This document shows positions 18,922 through 31,258 of a DNA stretch of 35,269 nucleotides, in pieces. The notes below the pieces were generated by a model that did no database searches, had not been told where the DNA came from, and saw only the letters and a program-made list of their open reading frames with translations. Made by a program: the position numbers and the translations under genes. The DNA lies in the IMG/VR virus record IMGVR_UViG_3300046458_000051, positions 1 through 35,269 of that record, one strand, 5' to 3'. Each line of letters starts with the position of its first letter. The first letter of the stretch is position 1. This DNA comes from a virus.

Positions 18922-19137
18922 TTAGGCGGCCATCTCGGCCCAAGGAAACGACGGACACAGCTTTTCTTTTTTGAAAGCACCTTCGGTCAGCGCCTCCGCT
19001 CGCTTGGCAATAACCGGAGACATGCCGTGCTTCCCCCGAACCCAGCCGGAAACGGTGCTTTGATCAACCTTGAGCTTTTCGGCGGTGGCCTCCTGGGTGC
19101 CGAAATAGTCAACGAGGCCCTTGTAAATTTCGTTCAT
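18922..19137 (-). CDS. Cro-like repressor (YdaS/P22 Cro-type HTH)
   Basis: A 71-residue protein: MNEIYKGLVDYFGTQEATAE then KLKVDQSTVSGWVRGKHGMS. The Q..A..L.V....VS.W..G..G.....A...E motif is a helix-turn-helix of the P22 Cro/YdaS type. The start has GGAGAGGC five bases upstream. It is divergent from the CI-like gene with three operators between. It should repress the CI promoter and tune the early promoters during lytic growth. A YdaS-type antitoxin is the other naming choice; position favours Cro. Confidence 0.85.
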   Translation of the reverse strand: MNEIYKGLVDYFGTQEATAEKLKVDQSTVSGWVRGKHGMSPVIAKRAEALTEGAFKKEKLCPSFPWAEMAA

Positions 19138-19149
19138 GATGCCTCTCCA

Positions 19150-19213
19150 TACGGGAATACCCATATAGTAGGCTATGGGAATACCGATTTGCAAGGGTAT
19201 GGGAGCGCCCGTA
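19150..19213. promoter_or_regulatory. Right operator: three 16-bp repressor sites at 24-bp spacing
   Basis: TACGGGAATACCCATA (19150-19165), TATGGGAATACCGATT (19174-19189) and TATGGGAGCGCCCGTA (19198-19213). Consensus TATGGG-N4-CCCRTA with dyad symmetry. Starts are exactly 24 bases apart, a spacing close to lambda OR that puts bound dimers on one DNA face. The first two sites lie over the cro-side promoter; the third lies over the CI promoter. The same motif recurs at 21391 and 21416. Confidence 0.88.
19165..19194 (-). promoter_or_regulatory. Cro-side early promoter (PR-like)
   Basis: Minus strand TTGCAA (19194-19189), 18 bases, TACTAT (19170-19165). One repressor site (19174-19189) fills the spacer and another (19150-19165) touches the -10. 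TTGCAA is its own reverse complement, so the same six bases can serve as -35 for the opposite promoter. It drives the Cro-like gene and the right early operon. Confidence 0.65.
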
Positions 19214-19224: not shown

Positions 19225-19956
19225 ATGGAATTCAAAGACCGACTCAAAACCGCCCGCCGTCACGCGAAGCTCAATCAGACTGAGCTCGCAGAGCGCGCCG
19301 GCCTCACGCAGACCTCAATCTCCGATTTGGAGAGGGGTAAATCGAAAGCGACAGCCTTCGCAGCTCAGATCGCCTCAGTTTGTGGCGTATCCCCTATGTG
19401 GCTCGCAGAGGGCGTCGGCGACATGCTCAAGGGCGAGCCTGATCATCAGGCTGAACGCATCCAGCCCAGTGTGAAACTTGGCACCATCGAGACCTGGGAC
19501 GACGAAACACCTCTCGATGACGACGAGGTCTACGTCCCCTTCCTTCACGAAGTCGAGCTGGCGGCAGGCTCTGGCAGATTTGCCATCGAGGAAAGCGCCA
19601 ACTCGCGCCTGCGCTTCAACAAGAAGGATCTGCGCCACAACGGCGTTCAGTTCAGCAATGCGAAGTGCGTGAAAGTCGGTGGCAACAGCATGGTGCCCGT
19701 GCTGCGCGACGGCGCCACGGTCGGCGTAAACGTGGGAAAAAACTCCCTGAGTGACATCGTCGACGGTGAAATGTACGCCATCAATCACAACGGTCAGCTT
19801 CGCGTGAAACAGGTTTACCGCACCCCCACGGGACTTCGGCTACGTAGCTTTAACCGTGATGAACATCCAGACGAAGACTACACTTTCCAACAGACCCAAG
19901 AACAACAGATATCGATTCTTGGACATGTGTTTTGGTGGGCAATGTACTCCCGATGA
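19225..19956 (+). CDS. CI-like prophage repressor (HTH + S24 peptidase)
   Basis: A 243-residue repressor. N-terminal HTH: MEFKDRLKTARRHAKLNQTE then LAERAGLTQTSISDLERGKS (residues 1-40). C-terminal LexA/CI-type self-cleaving domain: scissile Ala114-Gly115 in VELAAGSG, catalytic Ser155 in GGNSMVP, and Lys195 in LRVKQVY. It should keep the prophage silent by binding TATGGG-N4-CCCRTA sites and be cleaved with RecA after DNA damage, so the prophage is likely SOS-inducible. Start chosen at MEFKD: no SD, but the promoter position predicts a leaderless message. Confidence 0.92.
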   Translation: MEFKDRLKTARRHAKLNQTELAERAGLTQTSISDLERGKSKATAFAAQIASVCGVSPMWLAEGVGDMLKGEPDHQAERIQPSVKLGTIETWDDETPLDDDEVYVPFLHEVELAAGSGRFAIEESANSRLRFNKKDLRHNGVQFSNAKCVKVGGNSMVPVLRDGATVGVNVGKNSLSDIVDGEMYAINHNGQLRVKQVYRTPTGLRLRSFNRDEHPDEDYTFQQTQEQQISILGHVFWWAMYSR

Positions 19957-20040
19957 CCGACCACCTCTTCACCACTATTTCAATCAGCGTTAAAGTCAAT
20001 TTCAATCTGCAAACCAATCAGTGGAGCAAATCTAACGATT

Positions 20041-21114
20041 ATGGAAAAGCGAGCTAGTGTTTTTAAATACATTGTCATTCCATTATCTTTCGTTGCCGGA
20101 ACCATTATCGGCTATGCGATTGCTTACCTGTCCGGCTTCCAGCCTTCTTTTGTCCCATTGGCCGCAGCAGGAATAGGCTTGCTCGTGGCACTATCCCTTC
20201 CAATACTACAAACCTTTTTCTTACAAGCACCAAAATTATCTTTAGAAATTAACGCCATTAAAAGAACCGTTAGTGAATCAGCATTAGTTTCTATTGAAGA
20301 TGATGCGGAGCTTAGTCATATAAAACCTCATCCATACTCTAGCCCCAGCTTTCCAATTTTTATGTCCGGTGGCGAGCTCCCAAAGCGCAGCGTGAGGAAT
20401 GGCCATAGCCTAGCTGAACTAGACGAGCTTTTAATAAAAGCCAAACAACGTCTGCGAGACCTTCCAAAGCAAATTGACGAGCGAAAAAAAGAACTAGACA
20501 GGACAAGCTCTTTTCTTCCAACAACATTTTCTAAATATGATTGCGACCGCCTAAATCAGCCTCTCGCCCCAGAAATCGAATTTGACGCTGCAGATCCTGG
20601 AAAAACTTTGCAAACTATCAGATCAGCATATCAAGATAGAATCGAAGCTGTTGAGAAAACCTATTCCGACCTACAATCGGGAATCCCTGCAGCTGAAAGA
20701 AAACTTGAATCGATCCGTGCGGATCTTTTGGAAAATCGTTCTTATTTCACTGTATCAGCATCACTGATTAACTCTGGAAGATTCAACACTGCCATAAAAG
20801 TCCCTGCCCTGCTTCGAGTTGCGATTGGCGAGGGAAATTATATCGACTTAAAATTAACCTTAAAAGATTTTGAAGAAAAGTCAGAAATCTCTGCCAATGG
20901 AACCAGAATAGTAACATTTGAATCAGCTGAAGTTTCTACTCTCCCTGAGGAGGATAGAAAACTTATTAATACATACTGGGGCCAATCCGTAAGCTCGCGC
21001 TTGTATAGTGAGGACATCCACTCCACTATTTATACGTCGAATGCTATTGCCTTCGCAGAGGGCTTATACCAAAAAATTATTTATGATCGACTGGCGCGAG
21101 CCGCAAGCTCCTAA
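20041..21114 (+). CDS. A+T-rich two-TM coiled-coil membrane protein, lysogeny-region moron
   Basis: A 357-residue protein. Membrane segments at about residues 10-31 (IVIPLSFVAGTIIGYAIAYL) and 37-60 (VPLAAAGIGLLVALSLPILQ). A long helical region follows with coiled-coil character (LDELLIKAKQRLRDLPKQID, about 125-160 and 195-230), then a beta-rich C-terminal domain (SYFTVSASLINSGRFNTAIK, LRVAIGEGNYIDLKLTLKDF). Codons are clearly more A+T-rich than neighbours, pointing to recent transfer. Cotranscription with CI is likely: 84-base gap, terminator after it. No known family. This slot in lambdoid prophages often holds superinfection exclusion or defence genes. Confidence 0.8.
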   Translation: MEKRASVFKYIVIPLSFVAGTIIGYAIAYLSGFQPSFVPLAAAGIGLLVALSLPILQTFFLQAPKLSLEINAIKRTVSESALVSIEDDAELSHIKPHPYSSPSFPIFMSGGELPKRSVRNGHSLAELDELLIKAKQRLRDLPKQIDERKKELDRTSSFLPTTFSKYDCDRLNQPLAPEIEFDAADPGKTLQTIRSAYQDRIEAVEKTYSDLQSGIPAAERKLESIRADLLENRSYFTVSASLINSGRFNTAIKVPALLRVAIGEGNYIDLKLTLKDFEEKSEISANGTRIVTFESAEVSTLPEEDRKLINTYWGQSVSSRLYSEDIHSTIYTSNAIAFAEGLYQKIIYDRLARAASS

Positions 21115-21340
21115 TGACTTGACGCATGAGCTAATTGTCACGAAGCTTTCGTCAAGCGACCAGCAGGCTGTTCAGCTCTTTCGCCTGATCAAAGCGTCGT
21201 CATATGCTGACGGTTTGGCTCCATTTACTAGGGGCAAAGCGAGTTCTTATAGTTCGTTAATTCACTAATGCCCCCCACGAAGAAATGCGAGTGATTCGGC
21301 TCAGATCTATGAGCCGTGTAAAAATCGAAAGCTTTCCAAG

Positions 21341-21363
21341 CCCGCCACGCGCGGGTTTTTTTT
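21341..21363 (+). terminator. Terminator of the repressor operon
   Basis: CCCGC, loop CACGC, GCGGG followed by eight T (21356-21363). A second hairpin, CGGCTCA-GATCTA-TGAGCCG, lies about 25 bases upstream (21297-21316). Together they end transcription from the CI/membrane-protein unit before the left early promoter. Confidence 0.82.
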
Positions 21364-21390: not shown

Positions 21391-21431
21391 TATGGGTTTT
21401 CCCATTGACATGAAATATGGGTATGCCTATA
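21391..21431. promoter_or_regulatory. Left operator: two further repressor sites
   Basis: TATGGGTTTTCCCATT (21391-21406) and TATGGGTATGCCTATA (21416-21431), 25 bases apart, match the consensus of the three sites at the cro-CI junction (TATGGG-N4-CCCRTA). They lie 2.2 kb away, beyond the CI and membrane-protein genes, just as lambda OL lies beyond the immunity genes. They overlap the -35 and -10 of the promoter at 21405-21433. Confidence 0.85.
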
Positions 21432-21433
21432 TT
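21405..21433 (+). promoter_or_regulatory. Left early promoter (PL-like), near consensus
   Basis: TTGACA (21405-21410, perfect consensus), exactly 17 bases, TATATT (21428-21433, five of six). Both hexamers are touched by repressor sites. It fires into the long plus-strand operon that ends with excisionase and integrase. The strongest promoter sequence in the window. Confidence 0.9.
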
Positions 21434-21484
21434 TCATCCATCGCAGCGACACACAGCCACTGCGAAGGGCCTCAAGAGACCCGC

Positions 21485-21532
21485 CGCTCTTTAACAACCC
21501 GCGCCATAAACGATTACCCGGCTCACGCTGGG
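21485..21532 (+). promoter_or_regulatory. nut-like antitermination element: boxA plus hairpin
   Basis: CGCTCTTTAACA at 21485-21496 equals the boxA consensus of ribosomal and lambdoid antitermination sites (YGCTCTTTAACA), where NusB/S10 bind. Twenty bases on, CCCGGC-TCAC-GCTGGG (21517-21532) forms a six-pair hairpin at the place of boxB, but its loop is not the purine-rich boxB type. It lies about 45 bases into the predicted transcript from the left promoter. Confidence 0.75.
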
Positions 21533-21563
21533 AGGTCAGCCCCGGCCACACCTGTGGGGCGAG

Positions 21564-21755
21564 ATGAAGTCAGGTGAACAAAATCGCGCTGCCACTACTG
21601 GCGACCGGCGATCCGATAGCCCCGAAAGGCTACCAACGCGCAGAACTGCGACGGCGGACGAGGTGTTGACCGAACTGGCGAATGACCTGGTAGGAGGCGC
21701 GAGCAATTTCCGTAAATTTATTGATGCCGTTTTTTTATGCGGCATCAATCCATAG
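21564..21755 (+). CDS. Possible small leader gene of the left operon (63 aa, uncertain)
   Basis: Reads MKSGEQNRAATTGDRRSDSP then ERLPTRRTATADEVLTELAN and ends in a hydrophobic FIDAVFLCGINP. GGGGCGAG just before the ATG could serve as ribosome site. The arginine-containing N-terminal half and its place right after the nut-like element recall lambda N, but the pattern is weak. The last codons fall inside a large hairpin, which argues against a conserved protein. Treat as tentative. Confidence 0.3.
   Translation: MKSGEQNRAATTGDRRSDSPERLPTRRTATADEVLTELANDLVGGASNFRKFIDAVFLCGINP
21720..21749. repeat. Perfect 10-bp hairpin with T-rich loop
   Basis: ATTGATGCCG (21720-21729), ten-base loop containing seven T, CGGCATCAAT (21740-21749). 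It abuts the larger inverted repeat that begins at 21747. No T tract follows the stem, so it is not a normal terminator in either direction. Confidence 0.7.
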
Positions 21756-27525: not shown

Positions 27526-28173
27526 TTAAACAACGGACCCGCGACCACTGCGCTTATGTAGATTCCTCCCCTGCCACTGTTCATACGTCTGCGAAATATT
27601 CCAGGCTTCCTCTGGACTACAAGGGGGGAGATCAACATCGATCAAGCTTCGGGTGGCCACAAATTCTTCGTACTTTGTATTGAGAGCCTTACGAATCTTG
27701 AGCTTATTGGACGTCAGGTCTACCTGCTTCTCTGCCACATCAGGCAGGAAAAGCACCTTGACAGTTCCATCAGCAACAAACGAGACATCTCTGAACGATT
27801 CACCATCATTCCAGATAGCGTGCCGTTCGGCCTCGATATACACGTCATTGCACCAAATGCGGAAGCCATAAAGAACTCTCCCACCATTTTCTTTCATGAA
27901 TTCCATAACGTTCAAATCGCAGCAGCCGTCCCGACTCCAAGGTTCGGGGTCTGAATCAATGTAAAAAGGCGTTTCCGAGCTGATAGATGAACAGAACCTA
28001 GATACTTGCTCAGTTATTGCGCGCGGGGTATCTAGGTCGTTAAAAATATTCTCCATTGCCAGCATATCCCCAAGCCAACTAGGTACTCCTAGTGACTTGA
28101 AGCTCTGCGACACTTGGCGCTCAGCTTTCAGTGCTTGCTTTGCCTCTCTCTTAGCTTTGCTTTTTTTACCCAC
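27526..28173 (-). CDS. Accessory protein of unknown function (215 aa)
   Basis: Basic N-terminus MGKKSKAKREAKQALKAERQ, then a domain with GGRVLYGFRIWCNDVYIEAE followed by RHAIWNDGESFRDVSF and VKVLFLPDVAEKQVDL. The G....Y......IEAE.HA.W......DV....V.FLPD pattern seems to be shared by a group of small bacterial proteins of unknown function. Noticeably more A+T-rich than the phage core. Antisense to the left operon, inside the block bounded by the 33-bp repeats. A lysogenic accessory gene, possibly defence or anti-defence; not proven. Confidence 0.65.
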   Translation of the reverse strand: MGKKSKAKREAKQALKAERQVSQSFKSLGVPSWLGDMLAMENIFNDLDTPRAITEQVSRFCSSISSETPFYIDSDPEPWSRDGCCDLNVMEFMKENGGRVLYGFRIWCNDVYIEAERHAIWNDGESFRDVSFVADGTVKVLFLPDVAEKQVDLTSNKLKIRKALNTKYEEFVATRSLIDVDLPPCSPEEAWNISQTYEQWQGRNLHKRSGRGSVV

Positions 28174-28300
28174 GTGAGCGCTCCTTAAGCTCGTAAAAGG
28201 CTATAAGACACGATTCAACACCAAATTGCCACCATGCCGCATCCGGTCACAGAGGGCGTTGCCTGCATTGGAGAGCATCAGGGCTCAGCAGCATCAGAAA

Positions 28301-28345
28301 CAGGTCGGCGACTGCATCGACATGATGCGGTCGCTACCAGATGAG
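28301..28345 (+). pseudogene. Remnant of a methyltransferase gene start
   Basis: Codes, without a start codon, for QVGDCIDMMRSLPDEAI, matching LVGDCIEMMRTLRDNSI of the intact methyltransferase at 28827. Over the 31 bases from TCGGCGACTGCAT onward only three differ. The differences show it is a relative, not a fresh copy. After 28345 the match stops and the minus-strand gene at 28358 begins. It marks the left edge of an insertion. Confidence 0.7.
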
Positions 28346-28357
28346 GCGATAAGCAAC

Positions 28358-28744
28358 CTATCTATTTGCGGGCTCTTCAAGAGTCAATAAAGAAATTCCT
28401 TTGGGGTATTGATTCATTACTAAAGCACGATATGTTTGGGAAACACATGCCATCTCCTCATCAGAAGGCTCATACCCTAAAATTTTTGAGGCTTGCACCC
28501 TGTCTTTCCGCGGAGCCCAATTTTCACTACCCTGTTCTGTCTTAATACTGATTGACTGCAAGCTAAGATCGGGACCAAAGATCAAAATAAAAGACTTGGC
28601 CGACAACTTGTCAATTTGAGCGACTGCGTAGTCCAAATAAAGACCAGACAAAGATTCAGAAGAGTGAGTCTCATACTTCTCGTTCGGGTCGTCACCCCAT
28701 CGAGCCAGCATGGTTTGTGGAAAGCAATACTGAAATTTTGCCAT
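28358..28744 (-). CDS. Minus-strand accessory protein (128 aa)
   Basis: MAKFQYCFPQTMLARWGDDP then NEKYETHSSESLSGLYLDYA, VAQIDKLSAKSFILIFGPDL and a C-terminal EMACVSQTYRALVMNQYPKG. GGAAAGGGG lies seven bases before the ATG. A+T-rich relative to neighbours. The leader carries copy B of the 33-bp repeat, so it seems to belong to the same group of cassettes as the 99-residue gene. Function unknown. Confidence 0.65.
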   Translation of the reverse strand: MAKFQYCFPQTMLARWGDDPNEKYETHSSESLSGLYLDYAVAQIDKLSAKSFILIFGPDLSLQSISIKTEQGSENWAPRKDRVQASKILGYEPSDEEMACVSQTYRALVMNQYPKGISLLTLEEPANR

Positions 28745-28755
28745 TTTTTTCCCCT

Positions 28756-28788
28756 TTCCGGCTCCATGCCGGGCCGAACACAAATACC
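28756..28788. repeat. 33-bp leader repeat, copy B
   Basis: TTCCGGCTCCATGCCGGGCC followed by GAACACAAATACC; one mismatch to 27232-27264. Read on the minus strand it forms the hairpin CCGGC-ATGGA-GCCGG just before the SD of the gene at 28744. Confidence 0.85.
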
Positions 28789-28826
28789 CCACTTCTACGA
28801 ATCACGCCAGCCGGCGAGGATCCCCT

Positions 28827-30514: not shown

Positions 30515-31258
30515 CTAGCTTAGAGCAGAAGGCGCTGTTCTTTCTATAGTCAACATGCCCGTTTCCGCTGCAGCCATGATCGAGAACTCGTCTCTTAACG
30601 TTTTGTTATCAGCGCGCAGATATTCGATAAAACACCGACCAATAAACATCTCTTCTGGAGCACGAAATTCGAAACTAATATCTTCTGTCCAAAATCCATT
30701 TTTTAAGTCACCAAAAAATAGCGACTTCTCTATACCAAGACTTTTATCAAAGAGAAATGAAACAAATCTAACGTCATGCCCTCTATTCATGATTCGTATA
30801 CAAGAAGTCACTAAGCGGTCAGGCAGAGTTAATGTTAGAAACGACTTAACCTCAAACTCAGGGGATATGTCTTGCTCATGCTTCCAAACTTGTAGTTCGA
30901 ATGCGGCTTGTTGTGATTGAAGCTGACGGGTCGCCGCAGCAGCCATTATTGATTGCTGTTCGACTGAAGCTTTGAGCTCCTCTGCCTGCAACCGCAATGC
31001 ATCGGTGCTCAGTTTAAGTTCTCGACCTTGCTGAACGTAACCTAATACAAGCCATAGAAATGCAACTGGACCAAACACGCCAGCAGCGAGATCTCCTATT
31101 TCATACAGTTTCAACGCGATCAGCTCATCAAATTTTGCCCCCATGATGATGATCGCACCACCGATATACAACGCAGTAAGATGCGCAGCCCACCATTCCA
31201 AGCTTCGGCTGCACCACCATTTCGCCTGACCTATCCAATACGTTCGAAAACGACCCAA
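30515..31258 (-). CDS. Two-TM coiled-coil membrane protein, accessory
   Basis: A 247-residue protein. Membrane segments at about residues 24-42 (HLTALYIGGAIIIMGAKF) and 55-75 (GDLAAGVFGPVAFLWLVLGY), then a coiled coil (ELKLSTDALRLQAEELKASV and following, about 78-120), then a beta-rich soluble domain (FLTLTLPDRLVTSCIRIMNR). A+T-rich. The layout of two membrane helices, coiled coil, beta domain repeats that of the unrelated protein at 20041-21114. Such architectures are found among phage exclusion and defence proteins, but no family can be named. Confidence 0.7.
   Translation of the reverse strand: MGRFRTYWIGQAKWWCSRSLEWWAAHLTALYIGGAIIIMGAKFDELIALKLYEIGDLAAGVFGPVAFLWLVLGYVQQGRELKLSTDALRLQAEELKASVEQQSIMAAAATRQLQSQQAAFELQVWKHEQDISPEFEVKSFLTLTLPDRLVTSCIRIMNRGHDVRFVSFLFDKSLGIEKSLFFGDLKNGFWTEDISFEFRAPEEMFIGRCFIEYLRADNKTLRDEFSIMAAAETGMLTIERTAPSALS

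Follow-up and report, generated by a model that had tools for sequence, protein, structure and literature searches.

The interval between the repressor gene and N is a common site of morons in lambdoid prophages, with rexAB and bstA among them (PMC7067206). The cI promoter drives transcription of the bstA gene in this interval (PMC7067206). In a P. putida prophage, a RexAB-type defence, i.e., RexABpp, was found downstream of a CI-like repressor (PMC12894663). Lambda RexAB and RexABpp exclude other phages. BstA of Salmonella BTP1, a single defence gene behind cI, goes to the sites of phage DNA replication (PMC8585504, PMC7067206). A second reservoir is formed by chromosomal integrons, which act as stores of genes against phages (Darracq 2025, Getz 2025, and Kieffer 2025, as cited in PMC12409362 and PMC12444791). 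In V. cholerae, about 10% of the integron cassettes had anti-phage activity (PMC12409362).

The gene analysed here lies at 20041-21114 on the plus strand of a 35,269-bp virus record (the window, i.e., the whole stretch of DNA that was analysed). The record is a Pseudomonas lambda-like prophage, and its relatives are Pseudomonas phages PseuP_222, phiAH14a, and Medea1. The gene resembles rexAB and RexABpp in its slot behind cI, in the lysogen expression expected from its position, and in its membrane component, and exclusion of other phages is a candidate role for its product. Unlike rexAB, it is one gene and not a two-gene operon, and its product combines two membrane helices, a coiled coil, and a soluble domain, whereas RexB is of a four-helix type. 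It is like bstA in its position as a single gene behind cI with presumed cI-promoter transcription, but the protein is predicted to be membrane-anchored and has no PADLOC match. The Imm_superinfect proteins (PF14373), named for superinfection immunity, are also membrane proteins and were found in the same slot in 23 of 46 relatives, but they have no sequence similarity to the protein, i.e., the PF14373 profile did not match. The slot is thus of a known kind, that of rexAB and bstA, and the protein family is new. In the reading that we favour, with somewhat better than even confidence, 20041-21114 is a lysogeny-expressed moron in a rex-type cI-pL slot and encodes a single-gene anti-phage protein acting by superinfection exclusion or abortive infection.

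The cI-pL slot and its cargo

The following features were located around the gene.

18922..19140, minus strand: small cro-like gene, an ORF starting at MNEIYKG, divergent from and opposite to cI; in PseuP_222 the corresponding place is annotated as a Cro/CI gene
19150..19185, no strand: copies of a CI operator-like motif between cI and cro, TATGGGWATRCC, shared with pL
19225..19956, plus strand: cI-type repressor with HTH_3 and Peptidase_S24 (Pfam and PHROG matches), first gene of the unit
19957..21337, plus strand: cargo module from the cI stop to the conserved terminator, unique to this prophage, 43% G+C
21338..21358, plus strand: intrinsic terminator closing the cI-cargo unit, conserved in relatives
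21405..21433, plus strand: pL-type promoter, near-consensus TTGACA-17-TATATT, conserved in relatives, right boundary of the slot

The operator-like motif TATGGGWATRCC was found at four sites of the window, where 0.26 matches would be expected. It is present in the cI/cro interval and inside the pL-type promoter, i.e., at 21416-21427, and this arrangement matches a CI-controlled pL. The start of 20041-21114 lies 84 bp behind the cI stop on the same strand, and neither a terminator-like site nor a plus-strand promoter-like site was found in this gap. The statement of the earlier note that the gene belongs to the same unit as cI therefore holds. Because the position is that of lambda rexAB and no terminator or promoter intervenes, it is natural to expect that the gene is cotranscribed with cI in the lysogen, and the cI promoter would then be its promoter.

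Directly 3' of pL, a strongly conserved non-coding leader was observed at 21484-21700, which is common to many Pseudomonas lambda-like phages. The leader starts with the boxA-like CGCTCTTTAACAAC and has several hairpins, with compensatory change at five pairs in seven sequences. It had no Rfam family match and is possibly a nut/put-like antitermination RNA.

The homology of the window to its relatives breaks off at about 19961 and returns exactly at the terminator, 21338. Because homology is lost at the cI stop and regained at 21338, the whole 1.38 kb module is regarded as exchangeable cargo. The same slot was then compared in related prophages, as the earlier note had proposed. A total of 80 loci with a cI homologue were surveyed, and the pL side, hence both borders, was placed in 46 of them. 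The 46 slots held 34 distinct cargo sets, and in all of them the G+C content was lower in the slot than in the flanks (49% vs 57%). No relative of 20041-21114 was found in the other slots of related prophages, including those with a closely related cI. The gene shows the features by which a rex-type moron is recognized, i.e., location between cI and pL on the cI strand, unrelated cargo in close relatives, and foreign composition.

Several slot proteins gave strong matches to known defence families in PADLOC.

RexA, slot of L037, 9e-72
AbiGi, slot of L029, 2e-55
IetA, slot of L065, 1e-100
PDC-S42, slot of L056, 2e-29
PDC-M63B, slot of L071, 2e-50
PD-Lambda-5_B, slot of L061, 4e-109
RmrT, slot of L075, 7e-28

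PDC-M63A was also among the strong matches. As a control, 65 non-slot proteins encoded in the flanks of these loci were searched, and the sole match was a weak one to DrmD (9e-6); the control set was weighted to larger conserved clusters, so the contrast between slot and flanks is indicative and not a formal test. With these families and the Imm_superinfect homologues, the survey bears out the earlier claim that the slot commonly carries superinfection exclusion genes. A remnant of Imm_superinfect was sought in the window and none was found, i.e., this prophage is without that gene. Some other cargos resemble host-fitness genes, i.e., hemerythrin and iron permease, and MqsA- and YafO-type toxin-antitoxin proteins are present in the slot of relatives. 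Since many cargos have no recognized defence role and some are host-fitness-like, the slot position alone does not settle the function.

Further candidates were noticed in the same slot. L005:6779-7837 and L021 encode an unrelated 353-aa protein with two membrane helices, no defence family, and, by eye, a possible GAF-like C-terminal part; it is a candidate of a layout similar to that of 20041-21114. Judged by eye and from pooled Pfam matches, the genes at L044:6720-8549, L053:6584-8047, and L019:6766-8208 appeared ATPase-, STAS-, or PIN-like. They had no PADLOC match where scanned and are possible new defence genes.

The gene and its protein

The gene and the parts of its product were assigned as follows, all on the plus strand.

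20041..21114: orphan membrane-protein gene, 357 aa (ORF, end-to-end homologue, no family match)
20062..20220: two-helix transmembrane hairpin, codons 8-60 (hydropathy, AlphaFold helices, flank residues)
20404..20742: two long helices with heptad repeats, i.e., coiled coil, codons 122-234 (heptad test, AlphaFold, sub-threshold PF12795 match)
20737..21111: C-terminal domain, codons 233-357 (region identities to the homologue)

The open frame of 357 codons was confirmed, and in 500 shuffled versions of the slot, open frames reached at most 190 codons. The gene has a G+C content of 42% and GC3 of 35%, against 57% G+C for the window and 56% G+C and 67% GC3 for cI, in agreement with the earlier description of an A+T-rich gene unlike its neighbours. 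Between the gene and its homologue, described below, the codon-position differences were 0.39/0.24/0.74, which points to selection on the protein, and 156 of the 212 identical residues had altered codons. From these comparisons, 20041-21114 is judged to be a real gene whose protein is under selection. A Shine-Dalgarno-like GGAG sits rather distant from the ATG, and this counts against the favoured explanation.

No family match of the protein was found in Pfam, PHROGs, PADLOC, NCBIfam, or PDB, as the earlier note had anticipated in assigning it to no known family. No PADLOC family profile of the known anti-phage systems matched it, which also counts against the favoured explanation, and no similarity to RexA or RexB was detected by Pfam or PADLOC. 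The best family lead was MscS_porin (PF12795), to the helical, coiled-coil part, with an E value of 5e-4. The score stayed below the threshold (20.1 bits against a cut-off of 34.4), and kinship was rejected. The weak match is best explained by common coiled-coil composition, and the protein is without a channel domain.

Hydrophobic helices were predicted at residues ~8-30 and 35-60 by hydropathy and AlphaFold. The loop between them is short and uncharged and K/R residues stand on either outer flank, so the positive-inside rule predicts an N-in/C-in hairpin with both ends in the cytoplasm. Heptad periodicity was significant at residues 122-158 (shuffle fraction 0.0015) and 186-234 (shuffle fraction 0.0005), and the coiled-coil helices were confident in AlphaFold, with a pLDDT of about 77-89. 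The two membrane helices and the long coiled coil that had been read from the sequence were thus both recovered. The C-terminal domain had been described as beta-rich, which was only partly reproduced: strands were predicted at ~256-291, but two helices follow, all with very low AlphaFold confidence. The pLDDT was 52 for the full protein and 36 for the C-terminal domain alone, with two sequences as input. Residues 233-357 are 77-88% identical to the homologue, while the membrane, linker, and coil parts reach 39-50%, so that the C-terminal domain is assessed as the most constrained part of the protein. Such strong conservation would be expected more of a domain with a constant partner or activity than of a surface that recognizes phages and changes fast.

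Other A+T-rich genes were also seen in the window. The gene at 30515-31258 on the minus strand has a similar build, i.e., membrane helices, a coiled coil, and a possible beta domain. Its protein had no Pfam family, and no relation to the 20041-21114 protein was detectable when tested; it is possibly another moron. At 27526-28792, also on the minus strand, two further A+T-rich orphan genes lie within the plus-strand early region, without a Pfam family.

The homologue in an integron array

The sole homologue found was L002:8001-9113 of a Burkholderiales MAG, with 59% identity end to end. For this search, 84,980 genomes and the viral contigs were scanned by pattern, phages and plasmids were searched in six frames, and about 1,400 genomes were sampled; the pattern scans require near-exact short peptides, so distant relatives can be missed. 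No further relatives were found in viral contigs, phages, plasmids, E. coli, or the samples drawn from Burkholderiales, from its class, and from its phylum. Matches below 0.01 there were short and mostly in the coil. On sequence comparison, the two proteins are a new two-member family.

L002 is a one-direction row of unrelated one-gene units, each with an attC-like site behind it. An attC sequence model trained on 14 sites found 17 sites in L002, including three on which it had not been trained. One site, L002:9112-9177, lies directly behind the homologue, which is therefore an integron cassette. At the 5' end of the array, beside ccm genes, an integrase remnant with a stop codon was found. 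The bSEFIR defence protein is encoded by one L002 cassette (E 8e-79). Ten cassettes of this Burkholderiales chromosomal integron array (L002:1-14252) were scanned, and bSEFIR was the only strong PADLOC match.

By the same model, up to E 5, no attC was found in the prophage window. The prophage gene is thus not classed as an integron cassette, and its recent insertion as one was rejected. The likeness to the anti-phage integron cassettes (Darracq 2025, Kieffer 2025, Getz 2025) is that the sole homologue is a small single-gene cassette beside a bSEFIR cassette. Unlike them, the prophage gene carries no attC, and its family is not known to be among the cassettes that were tested.

Possible functions of the protein

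We consider an anti-phage role probable, since two independent contexts suggest it, i.e., a defence slot of prophages and an integron array that includes a defence cassette. The exclusion or defence interpretation of the earlier note is, at the level of sequence, partly supported, as a candidate. To our knowledge, most integron cassettes have not been shown to be defence genes, and this was counted against the anti-phage reading.

The strongest rival, although unlikely, is a lysogenic-conversion gene unrelated to defence. Its product would be a membrane protein that helps the host to endure envelope, osmotic, or other stress, and it would have spread as moron and cassette. Morons and cassettes have many adaptive functions, the hemerythrin- and iron-permease-like cargos of other slots are of this kind, and the coiled-coil part is weakly like the MscS_porin region. 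However, known defence families were enriched in the slot over the flanks, by a contrast that is indicative, and the array of the homologue includes a defence gene.

A prophage-internal regulator is very unlikely. A cI-linked protein could tune lysogeny or induction or protect CI, as proposed for 434 Hex. The gene would share its transcript with cI, judged by position, and a protein made alongside the repressor can influence repressor stability, as with Hex (PMC3564112). However, no related prophage whose cI is close to this one has the gene, and the homologue stands in an integron array without a phage repressor. Slightly less likely still is a toxin-like protein that forms half of an addiction or abortive module, with its partner elsewhere or in a short 3' frame at about 21084-21268. 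This overlapping frame of 61 codons extends beyond the stop codon of 20041-21114, and toxin-antitoxin proteins of the MqsA and YafO types occur in the slot of relatives, but the frame has no relative and only attC directly follows the stop of the homologue. Functionless or decaying passenger DNA, which an A+T-rich, rare gene without a family might suggest, is the least credible reading and was already made unlikely by the substitution pattern, since the frame is full-length, 59% identity and the 156 of 212 residues were kept despite codon change, and the C-terminal domain is so well conserved.

If the anti-phage reading is correct, the chance that the membrane is the site of action is about even. 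Anchored by the hairpin, both the coiled coil and the C-terminal domain would face the cytoplasm. When a competing phage infects, the conserved C-terminal domain may bind an intracellular cue, either a product of the phage or a host factor altered by the infection, and the coiled coil may relay this cue to the hairpin. The hairpin would then oligomerise and disturb the inner membrane, or block DNA entry there, and the competitor would be stopped. In the most economical form of this mechanism, the C-terminal domain would sense infection or bind a conserved partner, and the hairpin would be effector or anchor. The sensing and effector roles are guesses, because structure prediction gave no usable fold for the C-terminal domain.

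If the protein does block phages, it would be a new defence family that was overlooked by current profile libraries and was found via position, not homology. The cI-pL slot of these Pseudomonas prophages appears as a defined and sharply bounded defence hotspot, as its cargo diversity indicates, and many of its genes without known function are individually testable. We suggest tentatively, with slightly less than even confidence, that a new single-gene anti-phage family, built of a hairpin, a cytoplasmic coiled coil, and a new-fold C-terminal domain, travels between integron arrays and the defence slots of prophages and so connects two known reservoirs of defence genes. A family common to a prophage slot and an integron cassette suggests traffic between these reservoirs, which are usually studied apart.
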